Source: Thiomicrorhabdus xiamenensis (GTDB lineage Bacteria; Pseudomonadota; Gammaproteobacteria; Thiomicrospirales; Thiomicrospiraceae). From it: 64,000 nt of DNA. The DNA lies in contig NZ_CP054020.1 of assembly GCF_013282625.1 (NCBI RefSeq), forward strand, positions 1-64,000. The letters are read 5' to 3'. Made by a program: the position numbers and the translations under genes. Positions 12,544-61,156 of the stretch are shown in pieces. Position 1 is the stretch's first letter. Each line of letters opens with the position of its first letter. The notes beneath the pieces are model-generated. The model had not been told where the DNA came from. It searched no databases and saw only the letters and a list, made by a program, of their open reading frames with translations.

Positions 12544-14105
12544 CCCACACTCCTTTTCTGCCACTCATTCTGCCTCTGATTGCGGGGATTCTGATACTGC
12601 TGGCAAAACCGGGCGGCATCAAACTTCAGAGAACACTGGCGATAACGGCCACGACTATTCTGGTCGCCGCCAGCCTGTATGTGATGCAGAGTGCATTACA
12701 GAACCCTCCGCAGATCTATGCTTTAGGGAACTGGAAAGCACCTTTCGGGATCGTTCTGGTACTGGATCAGTTATCCGCTTTTATGGTCTTGATTACCTCA
12801 CTTCTGGCCGCTGCGGCACTATGGTTCGCGATTCGCCAGAATACGGATAAAGAAGGTGCGCACTTCCATGTGCTGTTCCAAATCCAGCTGTTCGGGATTA
12901 ACGGTGCCTTCCTGACCGGCGATTTGTTCAACCTGTTCGTTTTCTTTGAAGTCTTACTGTTAGCCTCCTACGGGCTACTGCTGCACGGAGGCGGTCGTCT
13001 GAAAACGCGTGCCGGTCTGCATTATGTCGCCATCAACCTGATCGGATCGACCCTGTTTCTGTTTGCGGTCGGCGCACTGTACGGCATTCTCGGAACCTTG
13101 AATATGGCCGATCTGGCACAGAAAATTGCCCTGCTTCCGGCCAGCGAACAGGGTGTAGTCGCAACAGCCGGTTTAATGCTGTTTGTCGTTTTTGGCGTTA
13201 AAGCCGCCATGTTCCCACTTTATCTCTGGTTGCCGCAGGCCTATGCCAACACTTCCGCCCCCGTCGCAGCACTGTTCGCCATTATGACCAAAGTCGGTAT
13301 TTATGCGATTTTACGTGTCCACGGACTGCTGTTCGGCGATACCGCAGGAGATCTGGCCGGATTGCATATTGATTGGCTGCTCTGGCTGGGATTGGTGAGC
13401 ATGGCTTTCGCAGCCTTCGGCGTGATCGCTGCCAAAAACCTGCGCCAGCAGGTCGCTTATTTGGTTCTGGCCTCGGTCGCAACCTTATTGGTCGCTATCG
13501 GCATTAACACCGAACAGGCGCTATCCGCAGCCCTGTTTTATTTGATCCACTCCACCTTTATCGCCGGCGGCCTGTTCCTTCTGGCCGACTATATCCGTCA
13601 GGGACGCGGCCATGTCGAAGACGCTTTTGTCCGAGCCCATGCCATGCCGAGCGCTATTCTAATCGGATCGGTGTTTATCTTTGCCGCGCTGGCAATCAGC
13701 GGTATGCCGCCGCTTTCCGGTTTTTTAGGTAAATTTCTGATACTTCAATCAGCGCTTGATCATCCGGCCTTCTGGTGGATTCTCGGCGTGGTTCTAACCT
13801 CCAGCCTGCTGATTATTATCGCGCTGGCGCGTAGCGGTTCGCTGCTGTTCTACAATATCCTGCCTCAGGAAGAGAGCCATGCGCCCGATAACACCCAGCA
13901 AAACAACACCGGCAAGATCAATATGCAAGGCTGCGGTTCGATTATCGGCCTGCTTTCAGTCGGCGCGATTCTGGTACTGTTTGCTCAGCCGATTTACAAT
14001 GTCACCGATTCGATCGCTCAGCAGCTTAATCAGCCGCAGATATATCTGCAAAATGTACTGCAATTTACGCCGGTGGAGAATACACATAAGGAGCTAGTGG
14101 AATGA
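12540..14105 (+). CDS. mrpD: Mrp antiporter subunit D
   Basis: MrpD is the second large NuoN/M-like subunit of the antiporter, about 14 transmembrane helices in 521 residues. Family segments include LFNLFVFFEVLLLASYGLLL around residues 124-143 with its conserved acidic residue, and the lysine-containing AAMFPLYLWLPQAYANTSAP segment. It overlaps mrpC and mrpE by four bases at each end, indicating translational coupling within the operon. Confidence 0.95.
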   Translation: MTHTPFLPLILPLIAGILILLAKPGGIKLQRTLAITATTILVAASLYVMQSALQNPPQIYALGNWKAPFGIVLVLDQLSAFMVLITSLLAAAALWFAIRQNTDKEGAHFHVLFQIQLFGINGAFLTGDLFNLFVFFEVLLLASYGLLLHGGGRLKTRAGLHYVAINLIGSTLFLFAVGALYGILGTLNMADLAQKIALLPASEQGVVATAGLMLFVVFGVKAAMFPLYLWLPQAYANTSAPVAALFAIMTKVGIYAILRVHGLLFGDTAGDLAGLHIDWLLWLGLVSMAFAAFGVIAAKNLRQQVAYLVLASVATLLVAIGINTEQALSAALFYLIHSTFIAGGLFLLADYIRQGRGHVEDAFVRAHAMPSAILIGSVFIFAALAISGMPPLSGFLGKFLILQSALDHPAFWWILGVVLTSSLLIIIALARSGSLLFYNILPQEESHAPDNTQQNNTGKINMQGCGSIIGLLSVGAILVLFAQPIYNVTDSIAQQLNQPQIYLQNVLQFTPVENTHKELVE

Positions 14106-53801: not shown

Positions 53802-55088
53802 TTAGAAAACAACACTGATCTGTGCAGACACCCGGTCGTCGATTGAGTCCAGGATATCGTGTACCGGTGATGCATCCGACAGATCCGGTGCATCAATCGA
53901 ACGCATTTCATAGTTGATTCTCAGAGCGGTTTTTTTATTCACAAAATACTGCGCGCCGAGTGTAGTGGTTGTGAATTCGCGATGATTGGCATCGGTTTCG
54001 GTACCGCTGTCCAGAAAGTCGTATCGCAGATTCAATTCCAGATTCGGAATGATGCGATAGCCAAGATCGACATAATATCCCTTAGCTTTTTCGTCCGGTT
54101 GAACACTGAACGTCGCGCCGTCGTCTGGCGTACCGGCTCCTGTCGTGCCTCCGTAAATCATACCGTCGGCGGTGATGTATTCGGCTGCCAGACGGTACTT
54201 ACCGTCGAAATAAGTACTCCCCAGTCCAGAACGTTTGCGGTCCACTTCGCCAACGTCATCCAATGTTCTTTTACCATCCTGCATCCAGGCGAACAGTTTG
54301 ACGCCCTGTCGGCGTGGGCCTTTACTTTCGGCAAAGATTTTTTCCGCCGCAACATACAGGTAATAGTCCTGATTATTGTCATTATCGGTCATCGAGATAC
54401 CGTTTCCGTTGCCCAGCATGGCTGCGTAGCTGTATTCCCAATCGTCATAACGGAAAGCATCGAAAATCTGTACCCCAGTATCGCGGAAAGCGCCGACGGG
54501 TGCATTACGTCCGGTGTTTCCCGTGGCATTATCAAACGAACGCTCCAAAAGTAATCGATCGGTGACATTGGTGAAGTTGATGTAGTTAAAGACCCCTATC
54601 GCCTGCAAGCCTTCTTCGGCGCCCGGCGTTTTGAACAGACCGGCGCGGATACGGGCTCCCGGTAGATGATTCAGGGTAATACTGGCATCGGTAAGCTGGC
54701 CTCGGGAAGCATCACCGCCGGTGGTAATGCCGTTATTACCGAATTCGGCCAGTAAAAAGTAGTTCACTTTGGAATCCAGTGGCAGGTTGTTTCCGCGCAC
54801 CCCGATACGCGCTCTGCGGACATTGAATCCCTGTGCGGATTCCAGTTGTGGTGCCATCTGGTTAAAAGCGGCTTCCTCTCCGGCAAAAGGTCCGGCTTTG
54901 AGTTTGGTGTTGTCGGTTGCTTGATACTCCGCCTGAATAAAGCCCCAGAGTTTTGCTCTCGGCGCCTGATGTTCGGCTTCTGTCCCCTGTAGCATCAGCC
55001 AGTTGGCCGCTTGAGCCGGCTGGCTTAGCGCGATTCCCCCCAAAGCGATAAGCAGTGCGTTTTTTAGAATTTGATTTTTAATAGGCAT
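53802..55088 (-). CDS. OprO/OprP-like porin
   Basis: The 428-residue outer-membrane protein has a signal peptide (IALGGIALSQPAQAANW) and the Porin_O_P pattern: FGNNGITTGGDASRGQLTDA and RIRAGLFKTPGAEEGLQ, with the C-terminal AQISVVF ending in Phe. Phosphate or pyrophosphate selectivity is known for OprP/OprO, but selectivity here is not proven. It lies downstream of the two DsrE-fold genes on the same strand (66-base gap), so it is probably the last gene of their operon. Confidence 0.87.
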   Translation of the reverse strand: MPIKNQILKNALLIALGGIALSQPAQAANWLMLQGTEAEHQAPRAKLWGFIQAEYQATDNTKLKAGPFAGEEAAFNQMAPQLESAQGFNVRRARIGVRGNNLPLDSKVNYFLLAEFGNNGITTGGDASRGQLTDASITLNHLPGARIRAGLFKTPGAEEGLQAIGVFNYINFTNVTDRLLLERSFDNATGNTGRNAPVGAFRDTGVQIFDAFRYDDWEYSYAAMLGNGNGISMTDNDNNQDYYLYVAAEKIFAESKGPRRQGVKLFAWMQDGKRTLDDVGEVDRKRSGLGSTYFDGKYRLAAEYITADGMIYGGTTGAGTPDDGATFSVQPDEKAKGYYVDLGYRIIPNLELNLRYDFLDSGTETDANHREFTTTTLGAQYFVNKKTALRINYEMRSIDAPDLSDASPVHDILDSIDDRVSAQISVVF

Positions 55089-55154: not shown

Positions 55155-55652
55155 TTAAGGGCGCAGGTAAAGGTAACCTTTGCTTTGAAGATAGGCGAGT
55201 TCGGCAACGCCGCTGGGAACAATATGCGAGGTTTCTACATCATACAGATCGCGTGCGACATCCACTTGACGCCCTTTGACCGTATTGGCACAGACATTAA
55301 AGTCGACGCCGAGCATTTTTAACTGGTCGATTTTCTGGATCATGCTTTGATTGGCGTTAGCGGTCTTGAACTTAGGAAGATTTTTAAGCGCTTCCGGTTT
55401 GATGAGCATGGACAACCCGTTACCGTGCATGACCACTTTGATATCGAGATTCTCTGCTCCGACGGCATTGATATGGTTTTGAATATTTCGCAGAGTTGAT
55501 GACTGTTTTTTAGCGTCGTCGTAATTGACGTGGTAGACCACCTTTTGTGTGCCGTATTTGCTGACGGTTTCCGCTGCGGAAGCTGTTGCAGTCGATACAG
55601 CGAGGATGGATAAAAACAGCATCAGGATTTGCAGAATAGGGTTCTTCTTCAT
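55155..55652 (-). CDS. Secreted DsrE-fold protein
   Basis: The 165-residue product has a signal peptide (LQILMLFLSILAVSTATASA-like, cleavage near residue 26) and a DsrE/DsrF-like domain. The fold is marked by KVVYHVNYDDAKKQSSTLRN at its start, DIKVVMHGNGLSMLI in the middle and a single mature-domain cysteine Cys121 in DFNVCANTVKG. The C-terminus VPSGVAELAYLQSKGYLYLRP-like segment is shared with the paralogue at 57722. Cytoplasmic DsrE relatives carry sulfur on such a cysteine; a sulfur role here is inference. It follows the DsrE gene at 56190 by 43 bases. Confidence 0.85.
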   Translation of the reverse strand: MKKNPILQILMLFLSILAVSTATASAAETVSKYGTQKVVYHVNYDDAKKQSSTLRNIQNHINAVGAENLDIKVVMHGNGLSMLIKPEALKNLPKFKTANANQSMIQKIDQLKMLGVDFNVCANTVKGRQVDVARDLYDVETSHIVPSGVAELAYLQSKGYLYLRP

Positions 55653-55695
55653 AGTCGTTATTCCTCTAAGTAAGCTTGTTTTATTAATTTTATTT

Positions 55696-56190
55696 TTAAG
55701 GTTTTAAAATCTGCCATCCGGCAGCGTTCAGTTGCAGGATACGTCCGGCTCCGGCAGGAACTTTTTGTACGCCGTCGATGATTTCCGGTTTCTGGCCGAG
55801 AATTTTTGCGAAATTCTGCAAGGTATTCGAGCAGGCACTGAAACGAACTCCCGCATTGATCATGGATTTGATACGCGCGGAATTGGCATTGTCTTTAAGC
55901 ATCAGACGGACGCCCGGGCCAAAGGCAACAACTTCGATATCCAGATTCGATGGACCGTAATACCGTTGCAGGTTGGCGGCGACATTCAATACCAGAACCT
56001 GTTTTTTCGGATCGGCGTCGCTGATTTGCAGTACGACTTTATGTTCGGCAAATGTATCCGGTAGAGGTGCCTCTTCCTGTGCAGCCATGGCTGTGGTCGA
56101 AAGCAGGGTGAATAGAAAAGCCAGACTACTTTGGATAAATAAGCGGTAGACGGCGAATGTGTGTGCCTTGATCGGCAGAGGTTTTCTCAT
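55696..56190 (-). CDS. Secreted DsrE-fold protein, divergent paralogue
   Basis: The 164-residue protein has a signal peptide (SSLAFLFTLLSTTAMAAQ) and a DsrE-like domain with HKVVLQISDADPKKQVLVLN, DIEVVAFGPGVRLML and Cys120 in RFSACSNTLQ, the position corresponding to Cys121 of its neighbour. It is more distant from the other two. It is first in a DsrE-DsrE-porin operon, and a promoter-like sequence matching that of the divergent sigma gene lies upstream. Confidence 0.83.
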   Translation of the reverse strand: MRKPLPIKAHTFAVYRLFIQSSLAFLFTLLSTTAMAAQEEAPLPDTFAEHKVVLQISDADPKKQVLVLNVAANLQRYYGPSNLDIEVVAFGPGVRLMLKDNANSARIKSMINAGVRFSACSNTLQNFAKILGQKPEIIDGVQKVPAGAGRILQLNAAGWQILKP

Positions 56191-56226
56191 GGTCGGTTAG
56201 CTCCTTTTTTGAGTTTCCTGTTGGTT

Positions 56227-56252
56227 AAACGAATGGGAGCAGGAGTTTATTC
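56227..56252 (-). promoter_or_regulatory. Candidate ECF promoter for the DsrE-DsrE-porin operon
   Basis: On the minus strand GAATAAA, ten bases, then CATTCGTTT. The same two blocks with the same spacing stand before the sigma gene on the plus strand. Placement gives a 5' leader of about 30 bases that includes an AAAGGAG ribosome site. Confidence 0.6.
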
Positions 56253-56342
56253 CAACTTTTTAGACCAGTAATTTTTATTTATCGAGCAGTATTTTTTATT
56301 TTATAAATCGTTAATATTTTTATGAAAATTCGCGTAAGCGCC

Positions 56343-56368
56343 GAATAAAATTTTTGTTGCATTCGTTT
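56343..56368 (+). promoter_or_regulatory. Candidate ECF promoter for the sigma/anti-sigma operon
   Basis: GAATAAA, ten bases, then CATTCGTTT, matching the promoter-like sequence on the opposite strand at 56252-56227. It lies about 55 bases before the sigma ATG and suggests autoregulation. Confidence 0.6.
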
Positions 56369-56423
56369 TTGTTCTTCCATTACTATCGAAAAACTCACAA
56401 TTTTGGAAAGCGGATTCACAAAA

Positions 56424-56996
56424 ATGAAATTAGGCAGCAAAGTCGCAAATTTGTTTTGCGCCGCGCGAGACCGCAGAGAGTTTAACGAGGCTTTAAAGAA
56501 GCAATATTCAAGTCTTTACCGACTGGCCTACGCCTGGTGCCACCACCCGTCGGTTGCACAGGATCTGGTTCAGGAAACTATGCTGAAAGCGCTTGAAAAA
56601 CGTGAAGATCTAAACAGTTTGCAGCATTTAAAAGCATGGCTTGCCAAGATCATGCGAAATCAGTTTCTAGACGATATGCGTTTTAAGAAACGCTGGGAGT
56701 GGGTCGAAGAGTCGGAAATCGATGTTCATCATTGCCACGAATGCAGCGAAAGCGAGTTGATCAAGAAACAGCGGCACGAGATGCTTTATCGGGCGGTTGC
56801 GAGATTGCCTTACGATCAGAGGGAAGCGATTGTACTGGCGGATTTGCAGGGGTTCAGTTATCAGGAAATTGCCGATATTACCGCAACGCCGATCGGCACC
56901 GTAATGAGCCGGATTTCACGTGGACGTCAGAGGCTCAAAGAGCTGTTACAGAAACAAGACCTTCACACTAAAGTCGTCGCTTTTAGAGGACACTAG
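56424..56996 (+). CDS. ECF-family RNA polymerase sigma factor
   Basis: The protein, about 190 residues from the ATG at 56424, has sigma region 2 (YRLAYAWCHHPSVAQDLVQE, LKAWLAKIMRNQFLDDMR) and region 4 (LPYDQREAIVLADLQGFSYQ, IGTVMSRISRGRQRLKELL) and no region 3. It lies two bases before the anti-sigma gene. A TTG 21 bases upstream is in frame but less likely. The target is probably the surrounding DsrE cluster, based on shared promoter-like sequences. Confidence 0.93.
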   Translation: MKLGSKVANLFCAARDRREFNEALKKQYSSLYRLAYAWCHHPSVAQDLVQETMLKALEKREDLNSLQHLKAWLAKIMRNQFLDDMRFKKRWEWVEESEIDVHHCHECSESELIKKQRHEMLYRAVARLPYDQREAIVLADLQGFSYQEIADITATPIGTVMSRISRGRQRLKELLQKQDLHTKVVAFRGH

Positions 56997-56998
56997 AA

Positions 56999-57697
56999 AT
57001 GCACAATAAAATTGAAGATTATCAGCTTCAGGCTTATGTCGATGATCAGCTGTCAACGGAAGAGCGACTTGAAGTCGAACGCTGTATTGAAGCGGATGCT
57101 CAGCTTATTGAGAGAGTTGCCGAGTTACGCGCGCTCAAGTCAAGTATCAGACAGGCTTATGGAGATATTTCGGTACCGGAGCCTGTTTTTTCGTTGCCGG
57201 CAGCTAAAAAGCCTTTTTGGAATGTACCCAAGGCCGCGGCGGCTGCATTGGTTATGGGGGTTCTGTTAGGTGGTAACGTCGGGTTTTTACAGCATTCGAC
57301 CGATCTGCAGACTATGCAGGCATCTGCGCTTAACGAAAACGTCGTGACGGATAAATTCATTATCCATATCGATTCGGATGATTTGAGTAAGCAAGTGGCC
57401 GCTCTGCATAAAATTAAAAGTTTGTATGCGGAAAAGGGGCCGTCGCTTAAAGTGGATGTGATTACCAATTCCGATGGTGTTCGCTTGTTCGATATTAATA
57501 GCCCCAATAACGCTGAATTAAGCGCGCTTCTGGAGCAATACAGCGGCATAGCGCTGTACGCCTGTCAAAGAGCCCTGCAAAGAGCGAGCCTGAAAGGCGA
57601 GCCGATCCATCTGATTGATAAGGTCAAACATAATAAACCGGCTGTGGATGAGATGGCTGAACGACTGAATTCCGGCTGGAGCTACATCAAAATATGA
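56999..57697 (+). CDS. Transmembrane anti-sigma factor with DsrE-like periplasmic domain
   Basis: The 232-residue protein has an N-terminal anti-sigma helical region (KIEDYQLQAYVDDQLSTEER) without the usual HxxxCxxC zinc motif, a transmembrane helix around residues 78-97 (AAAAALVMGVLLGGNVGF) and a periplasmic domain that resembles the three DsrE-fold proteins encoded beside it: it starts KFIIHIDSDDLSKQV, includes VDVITNSDGVRLFDI and has Cys189 in ALYACQRAL at the equivalent place. The arrangement suggests the periplasmic domain senses a sulfur species or the DsrE proteins and releases the sigma factor; this is inference. It is translated with the sigma gene. Confidence 0.8.
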   Translation: MHNKIEDYQLQAYVDDQLSTEERLEVERCIEADAQLIERVAELRALKSSIRQAYGDISVPEPVFSLPAAKKPFWNVPKAAAAALVMGVLLGGNVGFLQHSTDLQTMQASALNENVVTDKFIIHIDSDDLSKQVAALHKIKSLYAEKGPSLKVDVITNSDGVRLFDINSPNNAELSALLEQYSGIALYACQRALQRASLKGEPIHLIDKVKHNKPAVDEMAERLNSGWSYIKI

Positions 57698-57702
57698 GGT
57701 TA

Positions 57703-57732
57703 TGAGACCATGCTAGAAGCATTATGGTCTCA
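57703..57732. terminator. Hairpin between the anti-sigma gene and the convergent DsrE gene
   Basis: TGAGACCATGCT / AGCATtaTGGTCTCA forms a stem with a small bulge and a three-base loop, overlapping the stop of the DsrE gene. It has no T-run, so it may act as a transcript-stability or bidirectional terminator element. Confidence 0.45.
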
Positions 57733-58213
57733 GATAAACAAAACCGTTTGCCTGCAGTTTGGCCAATTCGGCCACGCCGCTGGGCACAATGTCTTTCTTT
57801 TCCACATCATATAGGTCGTTATTGACGTCGATATGATAGCCCTCGACCGTGTTACGGCAGATATTGAACTTTACGCCGTTAAGTTTCAGTTGGTCGATTT
57901 TTTGTTGCATTGTCAGTGTCGCGTTTCCGGCTTTGAAATTATGCAAGTGGTGCAGGGCTTCCGGTTTCAGAAGCAGAGAAAGGCCATCACCATCTAATAT
58001 GACGCGAAGGTCAATGTTGTCTTCACCGACTTCGTTGAGATGATATTGGATATTTCTTAAGGCTGAGGTCTGCTTTTCATAGTTGTCGTAATTGATATGG
58101 TAGACAACTTTGTGACTGTCTTGCCTTTTGGCATAGTCTCCGACGGAGATATTCGGTAAAGCAAAGGTGACGCCTAAAAACAGAGTGAGCAGGGCTAGAT
58201 TGGTTATTTTCAT
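57722..58213 (-). CDS. Secreted DsrE-fold protein, close paralogue
   Basis: About 163 residues from the ATG at 58213, which begins a signal peptide (MKITNLALLTLFLGVTFALP); an ATG at 58252 would add 13 residues. It is a close paralogue of the 55155 protein: HKVVYHINYDNYEKQTSALR, DLRVILDGDGLSLLLKPEAL, Cys119 in KFNICRNTVEG and DIVPSGVAELAKLQANGF. It is convergent with the sigma/anti-sigma operon. No copy of the GAATAAA-N10-CATTCGTTT sequence is evident upstream, so its regulation may differ. Confidence 0.83.
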   Translation of the reverse strand: MKITNLALLTLFLGVTFALPNISVGDYAKRQDSHKVVYHINYDNYEKQTSALRNIQYHLNEVGEDNIDLRVILDGDGLSLLLKPEALHHLHNFKAGNATLTMQQKIDQLKLNGVKFNICRNTVEGYHIDVNNDLYDVEKKDIVPSGVAELAKLQANGFVYLRP

Positions 58214-58799: not shown

Positions 58800-59462
58800 A
58801 TGAGTGATTCTCCATTTAAGTTGCATAAAAACGCCAATGAAAAAGAGGGAGGAGCTTTGTATCGGCGTCAATTGCTGAAATTAGCTTCAATCCTTCCTGT
58901 AACCGGTGTGATCGGTCCGGTTTATGCGCGTAACTCTGTCTCTAAGCACTCGGATGTCGGCGCCGAGAGCCCTCTGCAAGACCCGTGGTTGAGTCTTGAT
59001 GCCGTGCAAAATCACCTTTTTCCGGCATCCGAGAGCGGTTTGAGCGCTAAACAGTTTAAAGCTTTGGACTATCTGCAAAGCAAATTCGAAAGACCTTTGG
59101 CCGATCATGAGGAGCAACAGTTCTTATTTCAAGGTGTGGGGTGGTTAAACGACCTGTCGATCAGTGATTATCGTCGACGTTTTGCTGCTTTGGACTACGC
59201 CGAAAAAGAAGCGCTATTGCAGAAAATCGTCAAAAGCCGTGCCGGAGAGAACTGGCTGTCGTTAATCATTGATAATCTGATAGAAGCGCTGGTCACGGAT
59301 CCGGTATACAGCGGTAATCCTGACGGAGCCGGCTGGAAATCGGTCGGGCAGATTCCAGGATTTCCGCGTCCGCAGGCTCAGGATCGCTATTATGAGCTCG
59401 GTTACCAAAAGCGTCAGCGGCTCTATCGCCAGAATGACGAAAAACGTCTGACTAAAGGATAG
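58800..59462 (+). CDS. Gluconate 2-dehydrogenase subunit 3-family protein
   Basis: The 220-residue protein has a Tat-like signal (YRRQLLKLASILPVTG near residue 21) and a domain of the gluconate dehydrogenase subunit 3 family, a small partner of membrane-associated FAD dehydrogenases, with DAVQNHLFPASESGLSAKQF and the C-terminal GYQKRQRLYRQ-like tail. The catalytic subunit gene starts five bases downstream. No cytochrome c subunit gene follows, unlike three-subunit enzymes. Confidence 0.82.
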   Translation: MSDSPFKLHKNANEKEGGALYRRQLLKLASILPVTGVIGPVYARNSVSKHSDVGAESPLQDPWLSLDAVQNHLFPASESGLSAKQFKALDYLQSKFERPLADHEEQQFLFQGVGWLNDLSISDYRRRFAALDYAEKEALLQKIVKSRAGENWLSLIIDNLIEALVTDPVYSGNPDGAGWKSVGQIPGFPRPQAQDRYYELGYQKRQRLYRQNDEKRLTKG

Positions 59463-59467
59463 AGTTA

Positions 59468-61156
59468 ATGAGTGCACATACCCCTGAATTTGATGTCTGT
59501 GTGATCGGTAGCGGTGCCGGCGGCGGTCCAGTGGCTTTTCGGTTGGCTCAGGCCGGTTATCAGGTTTTAGTCTTGGAAAAAGGGCCGTGGCTTAAGGAAG
59601 AACATTTTTTCAAAGATGAATTGAGCTGCTGCCGACATTCTATTTTTACCCCCGATCTGGCTGACGAGCAACATGTTCTGGAAACCCGCAACGAATACGG
59701 AAACTGGTATTCCGAAGCGACTTCGCAGTCGGGATGGAATTTCTGGAACGGTAATATGGTCGGCGGTTCGAGTAATCTGATGAGTGGTTTTTTCTATCGT
59801 CTCAAACCGCAGGATTTCCGTCTTAAATCGGAGTTTGGCGCAATTGAAGGAGCCAATATAGAAGACTGGCCGATCTCTTACGACGATCTTGAACCTTATT
59901 ATACGTTGGTGGAGAGTGAGGTTGGCGTATCCGGTCATGCAGTTGCGCATGCGTTTGCTGAGCCGCGTTCGACGAAAGACTTTCCCCAGAAACCGACGGC
60001 TGAACATCCGATCGTCAAGCGGATCGAGAGTGCCTGTGATGCGCTCGGTTATCAGCCGTTGCCGACGCCGCGGGCGATTCTTTCCTCGCCGGATAAGGGG
60101 CGCCGAAGCTGTGAATACTCCGGTTTTTGCGGCAGTTACGGCTGTGCTTCGGGCGCTAAGGGTAGTTCGCGTGCCGCGTTACTGGATCGTGCCGTCGAGA
60201 GCGGTAAATGCCATATCTGGGATAACTGCAAAGTGAATCGACTGATTTCCGGAGCCGACGGTAAAGTGGTCGAAGCGGAGTTTGTGAATGCCGAAGAGCA
60301 GGTACAGAGAGTGTCGGCAAAGATTTTCGTGGTTGCTTGTCAGGCCGTGGAAACCAGTCGATTGCTGCTTGCTTCCGTTGGCCCGAAACACCTCAAAGGG
60401 CTCGGTAATAATCACGATCAGGTCGGTAAGAATCTGCTGTTTTCCGCCGGTGGTGCCGGAAGCGGGGATCTGCCGTATGCCGATTTGGACCCTGAAAGCG
60501 TTAAAGCGCTGCAAACGCGTGGTCCGTTTGTTAACCGGAATCTTCAGGAGTGGTATGTCATCGACGACGAAGCCTTGGGCGGGCGCGTTAAAGGCGGGAC
60601 GATCGATTTTCTGCTGCGCCACCCTAACGCCTTGCCACAGGCGCTGCCGCAGAAATGGGACGACGACGGTAATCTGTTGTGGGGTGAGACGCTGCAAAAA
60701 CGCATAAAATCGGCGATTAGCGGCCAGCAGACTCTGAACTTCGAGGTTTTTAACGATTGGCTGCCGACTGATAACTGTTTTGTTTCGCTGGACACTTCAG
60801 TGAAAGATCGTTGGAATCAGCCGGTGGCGAAAGTGCGACTCGGTTACCACGAACATGACCTGAAAATCGGAAACTATCTGGCTGACAAGGCGGCCGGCGT
60901 TTTGCAGCAGATGGGGGCGAAAAACATCAACTGGTCGGTCAGCGGATCGCCTCCTGCCAATCTGATGGCCGGTGGCTGCCGTTTCGGCACCGATATCGAA
61001 ACTTCGGTACTGGACCCAGATTGCCGCATGCACGACTGCGAAAACCTGTATGTGACCGATGGCAGCTTTATGCCGACCGGCGGCAGCGTGACCTATACCT
61101 GGACCATCTACGCCAACGCATTCCGCGTTGCCGACAAGATTATCGCCGCGCTTTAA
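59468..61156 (+). CDS. GMC-family FAD-dependent oxidoreductase
   Basis: The 562-residue protein starts with the FAD motif VIGSGAGGGPVAFRLAQAGY and continues with the GMC-type WPISYDDLEPYYTLVE and GGCRFGTD segments and the C-terminal LYVTDGSFMPTGGSVTYTWT. A cysteine-rich stretch CEYSGFCGSYGCASG near residue 217 resembles that of the FAD glucose/gluconate dehydrogenase catalytic subunits. It is paired with the subunit 3 gene. The substrate, likely a sugar, polyol or alcohol, cannot be named. The gene lacks a signal peptide and could be exported by hitch-hiking on the Tat partner. Confidence 0.88.
   Translation: MSAHTPEFDVCVIGSGAGGGPVAFRLAQAGYQVLVLEKGPWLKEEHFFKDELSCCRHSIFTPDLADEQHVLETRNEYGNWYSEATSQSGWNFWNGNMVGGSSNLMSGFFYRLKPQDFRLKSEFGAIEGANIEDWPISYDDLEPYYTLVESEVGVSGHAVAHAFAEPRSTKDFPQKPTAEHPIVKRIESACDALGYQPLPTPRAILSSPDKGRRSCEYSGFCGSYGCASGAKGSSRAALLDRAVESGKCHIWDNCKVNRLISGADGKVVEAEFVNAEEQVQRVSAKIFVVACQAVETSRLLLASVGPKHLKGLGNNHDQVGKNLLFSAGGAGSGDLPYADLDPESVKALQTRGPFVNRNLQEWYVIDDEALGGRVKGGTIDFLLRHPNALPQALPQKWDDDGNLLWGETLQKRIKSAISGQQTLNFEVFNDWLPTDNCFVSLDTSVKDRWNQPVAKVRLGYHEHDLKIGNYLADKAAGVLQQMGAKNINWSVSGSPPANLMAGGCRFGTDIETSVLDPDCRMHDCENLYVTDGSFMPTGGSVTYTWTIYANAFRVADKIIAAL

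Follow-up and report, generated by a model that had tools for sequence, protein, structure and literature searches.

An ECF sigma factor paired with a DsrE-domain anti-sigma protein: a candidate periplasmic sulfur-sensing system of sulfur-oxidising Gammaproteobacteria

The sigma/anti-sigma locus and its DsrE domains

We analysed a 64,000-nucleotide stretch of Thiomicrorhabdus xiamenensis DNA (contig NZ_CP054020.1, positions 1 to 64,000; hereafter the window) that harbours an extracytoplasmic function (ECF) sigma factor gene, an anti-sigma gene and several genes of the DsrE family. A previous reading of the letters without database searches (the sequence-only reading) had placed three secreted DsrE-like proteins around the sigma and anti-sigma genes, and all five genes were confirmed. 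The sigma factor gene (56403..56996, plus strand) matched Sigma70_r2, Sigma70_r4_2 and TIGR02937 above cut-off. Its product contains sigma-70 regions 2 and 4 only and the gene is adjacent to an anti-sigma gene, the features by which an ECF sigma factor is recognised. The start listed for this gene is a TTG; the in-frame ATG at 56424 is the probable start. The anti-sigma gene (56999..57697, plus strand) begins two bases past the sigma stop codon.

The DsrE-family genes are called dsrA, dsrB and dsrC in this work; these names are labels and are distinct from those of the sulfite reductase genes. Two of them, dsrB (55696..56190; 26.3 bits against PF02635) and dsrA (55155..55652; 41.2 bits), lie on the minus strand, opposite to the sigma/anti-sigma pair. 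The third, dsrC (57722..58213, minus strand; 34.9 bits), is convergent to the pair; its coordinates are counted from an ATG, while the list of open reading frames begins it at TTG 58252. All three scores are above the PF02635 (DsrE) cut-off of 22.7 bits. Each protein looks secreted, with a hydrophobic, signal-like stretch at the N-terminus (as judged by hydropathy only), and each has a single cysteine (Cys121, Cys120 and Cys119 in dsrA, dsrB and dsrC, respectively). dsrC is 54% identical to dsrA and is probably a recent copy. A gene for an outer-membrane porin of the PF07396 family (phosphate-selective O/P; 53802..55088, minus strand; E 3.7e-10, above cut-off) is located 66 bases downstream of dsrA in the same orientation, and dsrB-dsrA-porin therefore likely forms a single operon headed by dsrB. 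This porin was the outer-membrane gene found among the Pfam-searched genes of the window, which included no TonB-dependent receptor of the type used in FecI/FecR signalling.

The anti-sigma protein has an anti-sigma-like N-terminal part, divided by a hydrophobic stretch at residues 79-97 (hydropathy) from a DsrE domain at approximately 116-231. It scored 19.2 bits against PF02635, under the cut-off. A profile built from 19 full-length anti-sigma sequences was used in a search of solved structures, and matched MTH1491 (1L1S) at positions 116-231 (E 6.5e-20) and ST0148 (2PD2) at positions 119-230 (E 4.7e-9). These are the nearest solved relatives of the sensor domain, and the conserved cysteine of the anti-sigma protein aligns with a cysteine in both. 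The two relatives are free single-domain proteins that were deposited as hypothetical, whereas the domain analysed here is fused to an anti-sigma protein. The profile matches support the assignment of the periplasmic part to the DsrE family, in agreement with the likeness proposed in the sequence-only reading. The N-terminal part matched the NF052375 antisigma model (E 2.3e-5) and zf-HC2, both under cut-off. Zinc-binding anti-sigma (ZAS) proteins carry the motif H-x3-C-x2-C; this class was ruled out, as the sole cysteines of the window protein are Cys29 and Cys189 and position 29 is not conserved.

Cys121, Cys120 and Cys119 of the three free proteins and Cys189 of the anti-sigma protein, already noticed as matching positions in the sequence-only reading, share one alignment column. 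The column was cysteine in 35 of 35 anti-sigma sequences, and the Cys29 column was not conserved. It was likewise invariant in larger sets defined by a score above 40 bits and a length limit, with shorter rows excluded (86/86 anti-sigma, 55/55 dsrB-type and 29/29 dsrA-type rows); beyond the window's own proteins these sets comprise 84, 54 and 28 distinct sequences, respectively. None of the 86, 55 and 29 rows had a second cysteine in the mature or periplasmic part. We take the cysteine of this column to be the counterpart of Cys78 of DsrE/TusD. With a single cysteine, no disulfide can form within the mature or periplasmic part of one chain; the chemistry left to it comprises a persulfide, other thiol adducts, metal sharing and inter-chain bonds.

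Recurrence of the module and distribution of the fusion

Gene maps were made for 36 loci and for 50 further loci (86 in total). The commonest layout was porin-(dsrA)-dsrB divergent from sigma-anti-sigma, and in a second layout dsrA was located downstream of the anti-sigma gene. A PF07396-family porin was encoded no more than 5 kb away from the pair in 25 of the first 36 and 29 of the further 50 mapped loci, and a divergent dsr or porin gene started within 500 bp of the sigma gene in 51 of the 86, as well as in the window. A counterpart of dsrC was present, besides the window, in one of the 86 mapped loci only (L057 of genome G026). The porin gene, which lies beyond the cluster outlined in the sequence-only reading, belongs to the recurring module and dsrC does not.

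The other genes that recur beside the pair in the mapped loci form small clusters only. soxB was located a few kb from the pair in loci L113 and L204 and, by coordinates, also in genomes G202 and G312; L113 additionally has a sulfur-transport (PF04143) gene and a thioredoxin-like gene. Downstream of the module in the window (58800-61156) there is a gluconate-2-dehydrogenase-subunit-3-like gene together with a GMC oxidoreductase gene, and the same duo follows the module in L038, L057 and L060 among the 36 mapped loci. A short inverted repeat (agaccat...atggtct, 57700-57735) was found by eye where the anti-sigma gene and dsrC converge and is possibly a two-way terminator. Elsewhere in the genome of the window there are two more DsrE-family genes (at about 309521 and at 840339-840752), one of them with a signal-like N-terminus.

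In the initial set, the anti-sigma protein had a match in 36 of 76 relatives, including matches to the DsrE part only (G061, G073) and a fragment (G004). The sequence-only reading had proposed to look for other anti-sigma proteins with DsrE-like C-termini, and a profile search of the class showed that the fusion recurs in 40 families. Matches were present in 131 of 369 class genomes; 66 of them had a full-length fusion among the matches listed (to E 2.4e-12), full-length being defined as a match starting at position 10 or before and reaching position 226 or beyond. The 65 genomes with partial matches only were kept apart from these 66. In a sample of the phylum (398 genomes) the full-length fusion was detected in three genomes, all of them Gammaproteobacteria, and the 15 other matching genomes had partial matches. 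A further search returned at least 74 loci, 18 of the 74 matching along most of the query and the others chiefly its N-terminal part. Carriers among these loci include Thiomicrorhabdus, Thiomicrospira, Thiogranum and Thiohalobacter; identity to Thiomicrorhabdus sp. 6S3-12 was 93%, in keeping with Thiomicrorhabdus as the source of the window. No relatives were found in viral contigs, and plasmids gave no match.

When DsrE domains were placed in a tree, all 33 rows from anti-sigma proteins grouped together (support 100/98), which suggests that the anti-sigma/DsrE fusion probably originated once; many forks of this tree were unresolved. The three-group tree is unrooted, so that the sister of the sensor domain (dsrB or dsrA) cannot be told. 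Two or three full-length fused anti-sigma genes per genome were observed in G272, G178, G126 and G250, and locus L190 of G272 has two sigma/anti-sigma pairs in tandem.

A shared promoter signal and the link with sulfur-oxidation genes

Spaced-word enumeration revealed that the dsr side and the sigma side of the divergent region carry an identical bipartite signal, with the consensus GGAATAAA-N14-CGT[T/C]T. In the window, the putative ECF-type promoter of dsrB-dsrA-porin (GGAATAAA-N14-CGTTT; 56227..56253, minus strand) has no mismatch and the copy upstream of the sigma gene (56342..56368, plus strand) has one. No other site of the window had fewer than two mismatches, and when up to three were allowed the total was 31 sites, compared to 28.6 expected by chance. 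The looser pattern GAAT-N16..18-CGT was present in 38 of 52 promoter regions on the dsr side and in 20 of 52 on the sigma side (means of 2.8 and 3.1 in shuffled sequence), the 52 regions counting one contig stretch twice (L068, L118). On the dsr side, all 20 loci of the genus and family had the signal with at most one mismatch.

The sequence-only reading depended on an expression link between the sigma factor and the DsrE genes, and such a link is indicated as far as sequence can show it. Its proposal that the sigma factor turns on the DsrE and porin genes holds up in part: a candidate promoter is shared by the sigma gene and dsrBA-porin and, in relatives, by soxB and soxX, while dsrC has no signal upstream within three mismatches. 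dsrC does not travel with the module either, and its place in the regulon is not supported.

A strict pattern was searched in 30 chosen genomes. For the window's family (17 genomes) the count was 47, compared to 56 with the pattern reversed, and for the 13 others 35 compared to 13. On contig C46 of G290, a contig other than that of the pair, a signal at 13385-13411 (minus strand) lies just upstream of a DsrE-family match (12895-13362), hinting at additional regulon members. In locus L246 (G171) the signal stands ahead of a secreted-looking thioredoxin-like gene (weak DsbH match, under cut-off).

soxB was called at an E value of 1e-50 or below (of the 152 calls, 148 were above the curated cut-off; in the fusion genome G145 the gene, truncated by the contig end, was under it). 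It was present in 152 of the 369 class genomes: in 65 of the 66 genomes with the full-length fusion and in 87 of the 303 others (Fisher p 1.7e-28, a statistic that ignores shared descent). The sulfite reductase gene dsrA was present in 116 of the 369 (51/66 with and 65/303 without the fusion), and every one of the 66 fusion genomes had soxB or this gene. Within the soxB genomes, there was no clear tie between the fusion and the dsrA sulfite reductase (p 0.055). soxB was also found in 41 of the 65 partial-match genomes.

Sites near sox genes had been noticed in the 30-genome search (directly upstream of soxB in three genomes, G355, G126 and G308, and in the vicinity of sox in two others, G213 and G128), and the region upstream of soxB was therefore tested against controls. 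The sample consisted of 60 genomes with fusion and soxB (65 genomes, 62 of them located), 40 with soxB and no match (46 genomes, 42 located) and 20 with a partial match (41 genomes, 36 located), the latter partly hand-chosen. Of the 60 fusion genomes, 16 had the pattern GGAATA-N15..17-CGT[T/C] in the 500 bases preceding soxB, vs. none of the 40 no-match genomes (p 1.4e-4). In the same stretches the opposite strand gave no match in either the 60 or the 40, and the mean in shuffled sequence was 0.11. A stricter pattern gave 8 vs. 0 (p 0.02) and a looser one 17 vs. 1 (p 9.5e-4). The signal was absent in all 20 partial-match genomes (pooled, 16/60 vs. 0/60, p 1e-5). The 16 positive genomes were spread over 11 of the 36 families sampled, and the difference was maintained after removal of the five genomes that had suggested the test (12/55 vs. 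0/60, p 7e-5).

Over all fetched bases, there were 29 sites in 221 kb in the fusion group (22 of 60 genomes) vs. one in 171 kb in the no-match group (1 of 40), and the reversed pattern gave 4 and 3, respectively. The G+C content of the fetched sequence was 0.56 in the fusion group vs. 0.51 in the no-match group. Some of the 29 sites are probably those of the sigma gene itself where it is near soxB, for instance in G202 and G312. In seven loci (L265, L266, L267, L270, L276, L317 and L308, the last sharing its gene with L243) the gene behind a second site, located 2.4-3.7 kb ahead of soxB, matches SoxX above the curated cut-off; distant sites are also present in L269 and L274. The predicted link of the sigma factor to dsrBA-porin, and to sox in relatives, is well supported by these comparisons.

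Interpretation and relation to known systems

We consider it fairly probable that the pair serves sulfur-oxidising Gammaproteobacteria as a membrane signalling unit, in which a periplasmic DsrE domain reads the sulfur state through its lone cysteine and frees the sigma factor. The anti-sigma protein would retain the sigma factor at the inner membrane, and its DsrE domain would sense the periplasmic sulfur state through the single invariant cysteine. This cysteine may either accept sulfane sulfur itself, a persulfide being our best guess for the sensed state, or pair or exchange sulfur with the free DsrE proteins. Once released, the sigma factor would turn on dsrB-dsrA-porin from its upstream promoter and, in other lineages, the same sigma family would also turn on soxB and the soxX operon. 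Porins of the PF07396 family are generally described as anion-selective, which would suit thiosulfate or polysulfide. The porin might accordingly let in anionic sulfur compounds, and the secreted DsrE proteins might carry sulfane sulfur. The binding and release of the sigma factor, the sensed compound, the sulfur load and the porin substrate are what we infer here. For the regulatory half of the mechanism there is sequence evidence from a large number of genomes. Its chemical half draws on the DsrE family, since the conserved Cys78 of cytoplasmic DsrE binds sulfur (PMC3397948), and on the lone invariant cysteine.

Several observations weigh against this interpretation. Some mapped pairs have no adjacent dsr or porin gene. 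On the sigma side, the signal was above chance only in the window and G026 among the genus and family loci and at chance in the other 18 of 20, so that self-activation would not be general. A search for more regulon members in the genome of the window gave 9 matches vs. 14 for the reversed pattern. The co-occurrence of soxB and the fusion was evaluated as if the genomes were independent of descent; one fusion genome (G101) lacks soxB but has the dsrA sulfite reductase gene; and 24 of the 65 genomes with partial matches, most of which cover the DsrE part, have no soxB. Finally, the soxB upstream signal was absent within 500 bases in 44 of the 60 fusion genomes, and no signal was found upstream of the soxB of the window's own genome (L319).

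The sensor domain and the free proteins share one family and are genetically linked, among the targets of the promoter the free proteins stand out most clearly (a layout expected of feedback) and the DsrEFH relative is a hexamer (PMC3397948). These observations would also fit a DsrE domain that is read by protein binding, with free DsrB/DsrA pairing with it as a brake or co-sensor, so that the cell gauges unloaded carrier. We regard this as unlikely, as the sensor domain has a cysteine of its own that is invariant and alone, which pure binding would not need, and as the pair in some loci has no dsr gene next to it. Less probable still is that the lone cysteine detects thiol-reactive envelope stress (arsenite, other metalloids, disulfide stress or peroxide), with the DsrE proteins as sacrificial or repair partners. 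Arsenite raised or lowered different DsrE/F-like genes in two Thioalkalivibrio species (PMC6620896), but the promoter precedes soxB and soxX, which are metabolic genes, and the fusion tracks soxB and the dsrA sulfite reductase. A sulfur oxyanion (sulfite or thiosulfate itself) as the signal with the DsrE domain as a mere scaffold, similar to the proposal for Sinorhizobium ECF26, would be in line with published sigma factors activated by sulfite-generating compounds (PMC3511301) but leaves the invariant cysteine unexplained, and we consider it very improbable.

Returning to a DsrE domain that reads sulfur through its cysteine, a more specific version is possible, if somewhat short of probable: a sulfur-carrier domain was recruited as a periplasmic anti-sigma sensor, and a persulfide on its one cysteine, exchanging with secreted carriers of the same family, sets sulfur entry (by way of the porin and the carriers) and, in several lineages, also the Sox pathway of thiosulfate oxidation. 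If this holds, lithotrophic sulfur oxidation would have a transmembrane sulfane-sulfur sensor, and our searches of the open-access literature returned no example of one. According to workers in the field, little is known of the ways in which inorganic sulfur, thiosulfate for example, is sensed by sulfur oxidisers, and the sensors described in their paper are cytoplasmic repressors (PMC10451225). The membrane sensor proposed here for Gammaproteobacteria has a defined promoter, cysteine and regulon, which makes it testable with no more than one or two strains. The proposal would also give a role to unexplained dsrE genes in this group: Hydrogenovibrio has five dsrE homologs without other Dsr parts (PMC6501319), and "an unknown sulfur trafficking process" was suggested for the genus (PMC5733100).

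No report of a DsrE-domain anti-sigma factor was found in open-access titles and abstract openings, or in the available portion of PMC10512742. DsrE and PF02635 do not occur in PMC7406223, on class I anti-sigma factors, and DsrE occurs in PMC3511301 only as the start of "DsRed". ECF sigma/anti-sigma pairs and the control of sulfur genes by ECF factors or sulfane sulfur are known, and it is the DsrE sensor domain on the anti-sigma factor for which no report was found. Arcobacter butzleri belongs to a phylum other than that of Thiomicrorhabdus. Its ECF sigma-2 likewise activates sox, and also nap, as observed by array and RT-PCR (PMC3445524); the comparison made here covers the sigma factor and its targets. 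The ECF26 factors RpoE1/RpoE4 of Sinorhizobium meliloti and their Starkeya counterpart also consist of an ECF sigma factor and a co-transcribed anti-sigma gene, answer sulfur compounds and control a sulfur-oxidising enzyme within a small regulon; they differ in that their targets are sulfite oxidases and their hosts Alphaproteobacteria (PMC3511301, PMC6527743). DsrEFH/TusBCD shares the DsrE family and the conserved cysteine, but is a cytoplasmic heterohexamer that hands sulfur to DsrC (PMC3397948). Membership of the proteins analysed here in a DsrEFH complex was rejected, considering their N-terminal hydrophobic stretches and the lack of a match to dsrA sulfite reductase in the genome of the window. 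SoxR and sHdrR of Hyphomicrobium likewise control sox or shdr by cysteine-bound sulfane sulfur; they are cytoplasmic ArsR-type repressors in which two cysteines are bridged by sulfur (PMC10451225, PMC12423496), whereas the system proposed here would use one cysteine, located on the outward-facing side of a membrane-bound anti-sigma protein.

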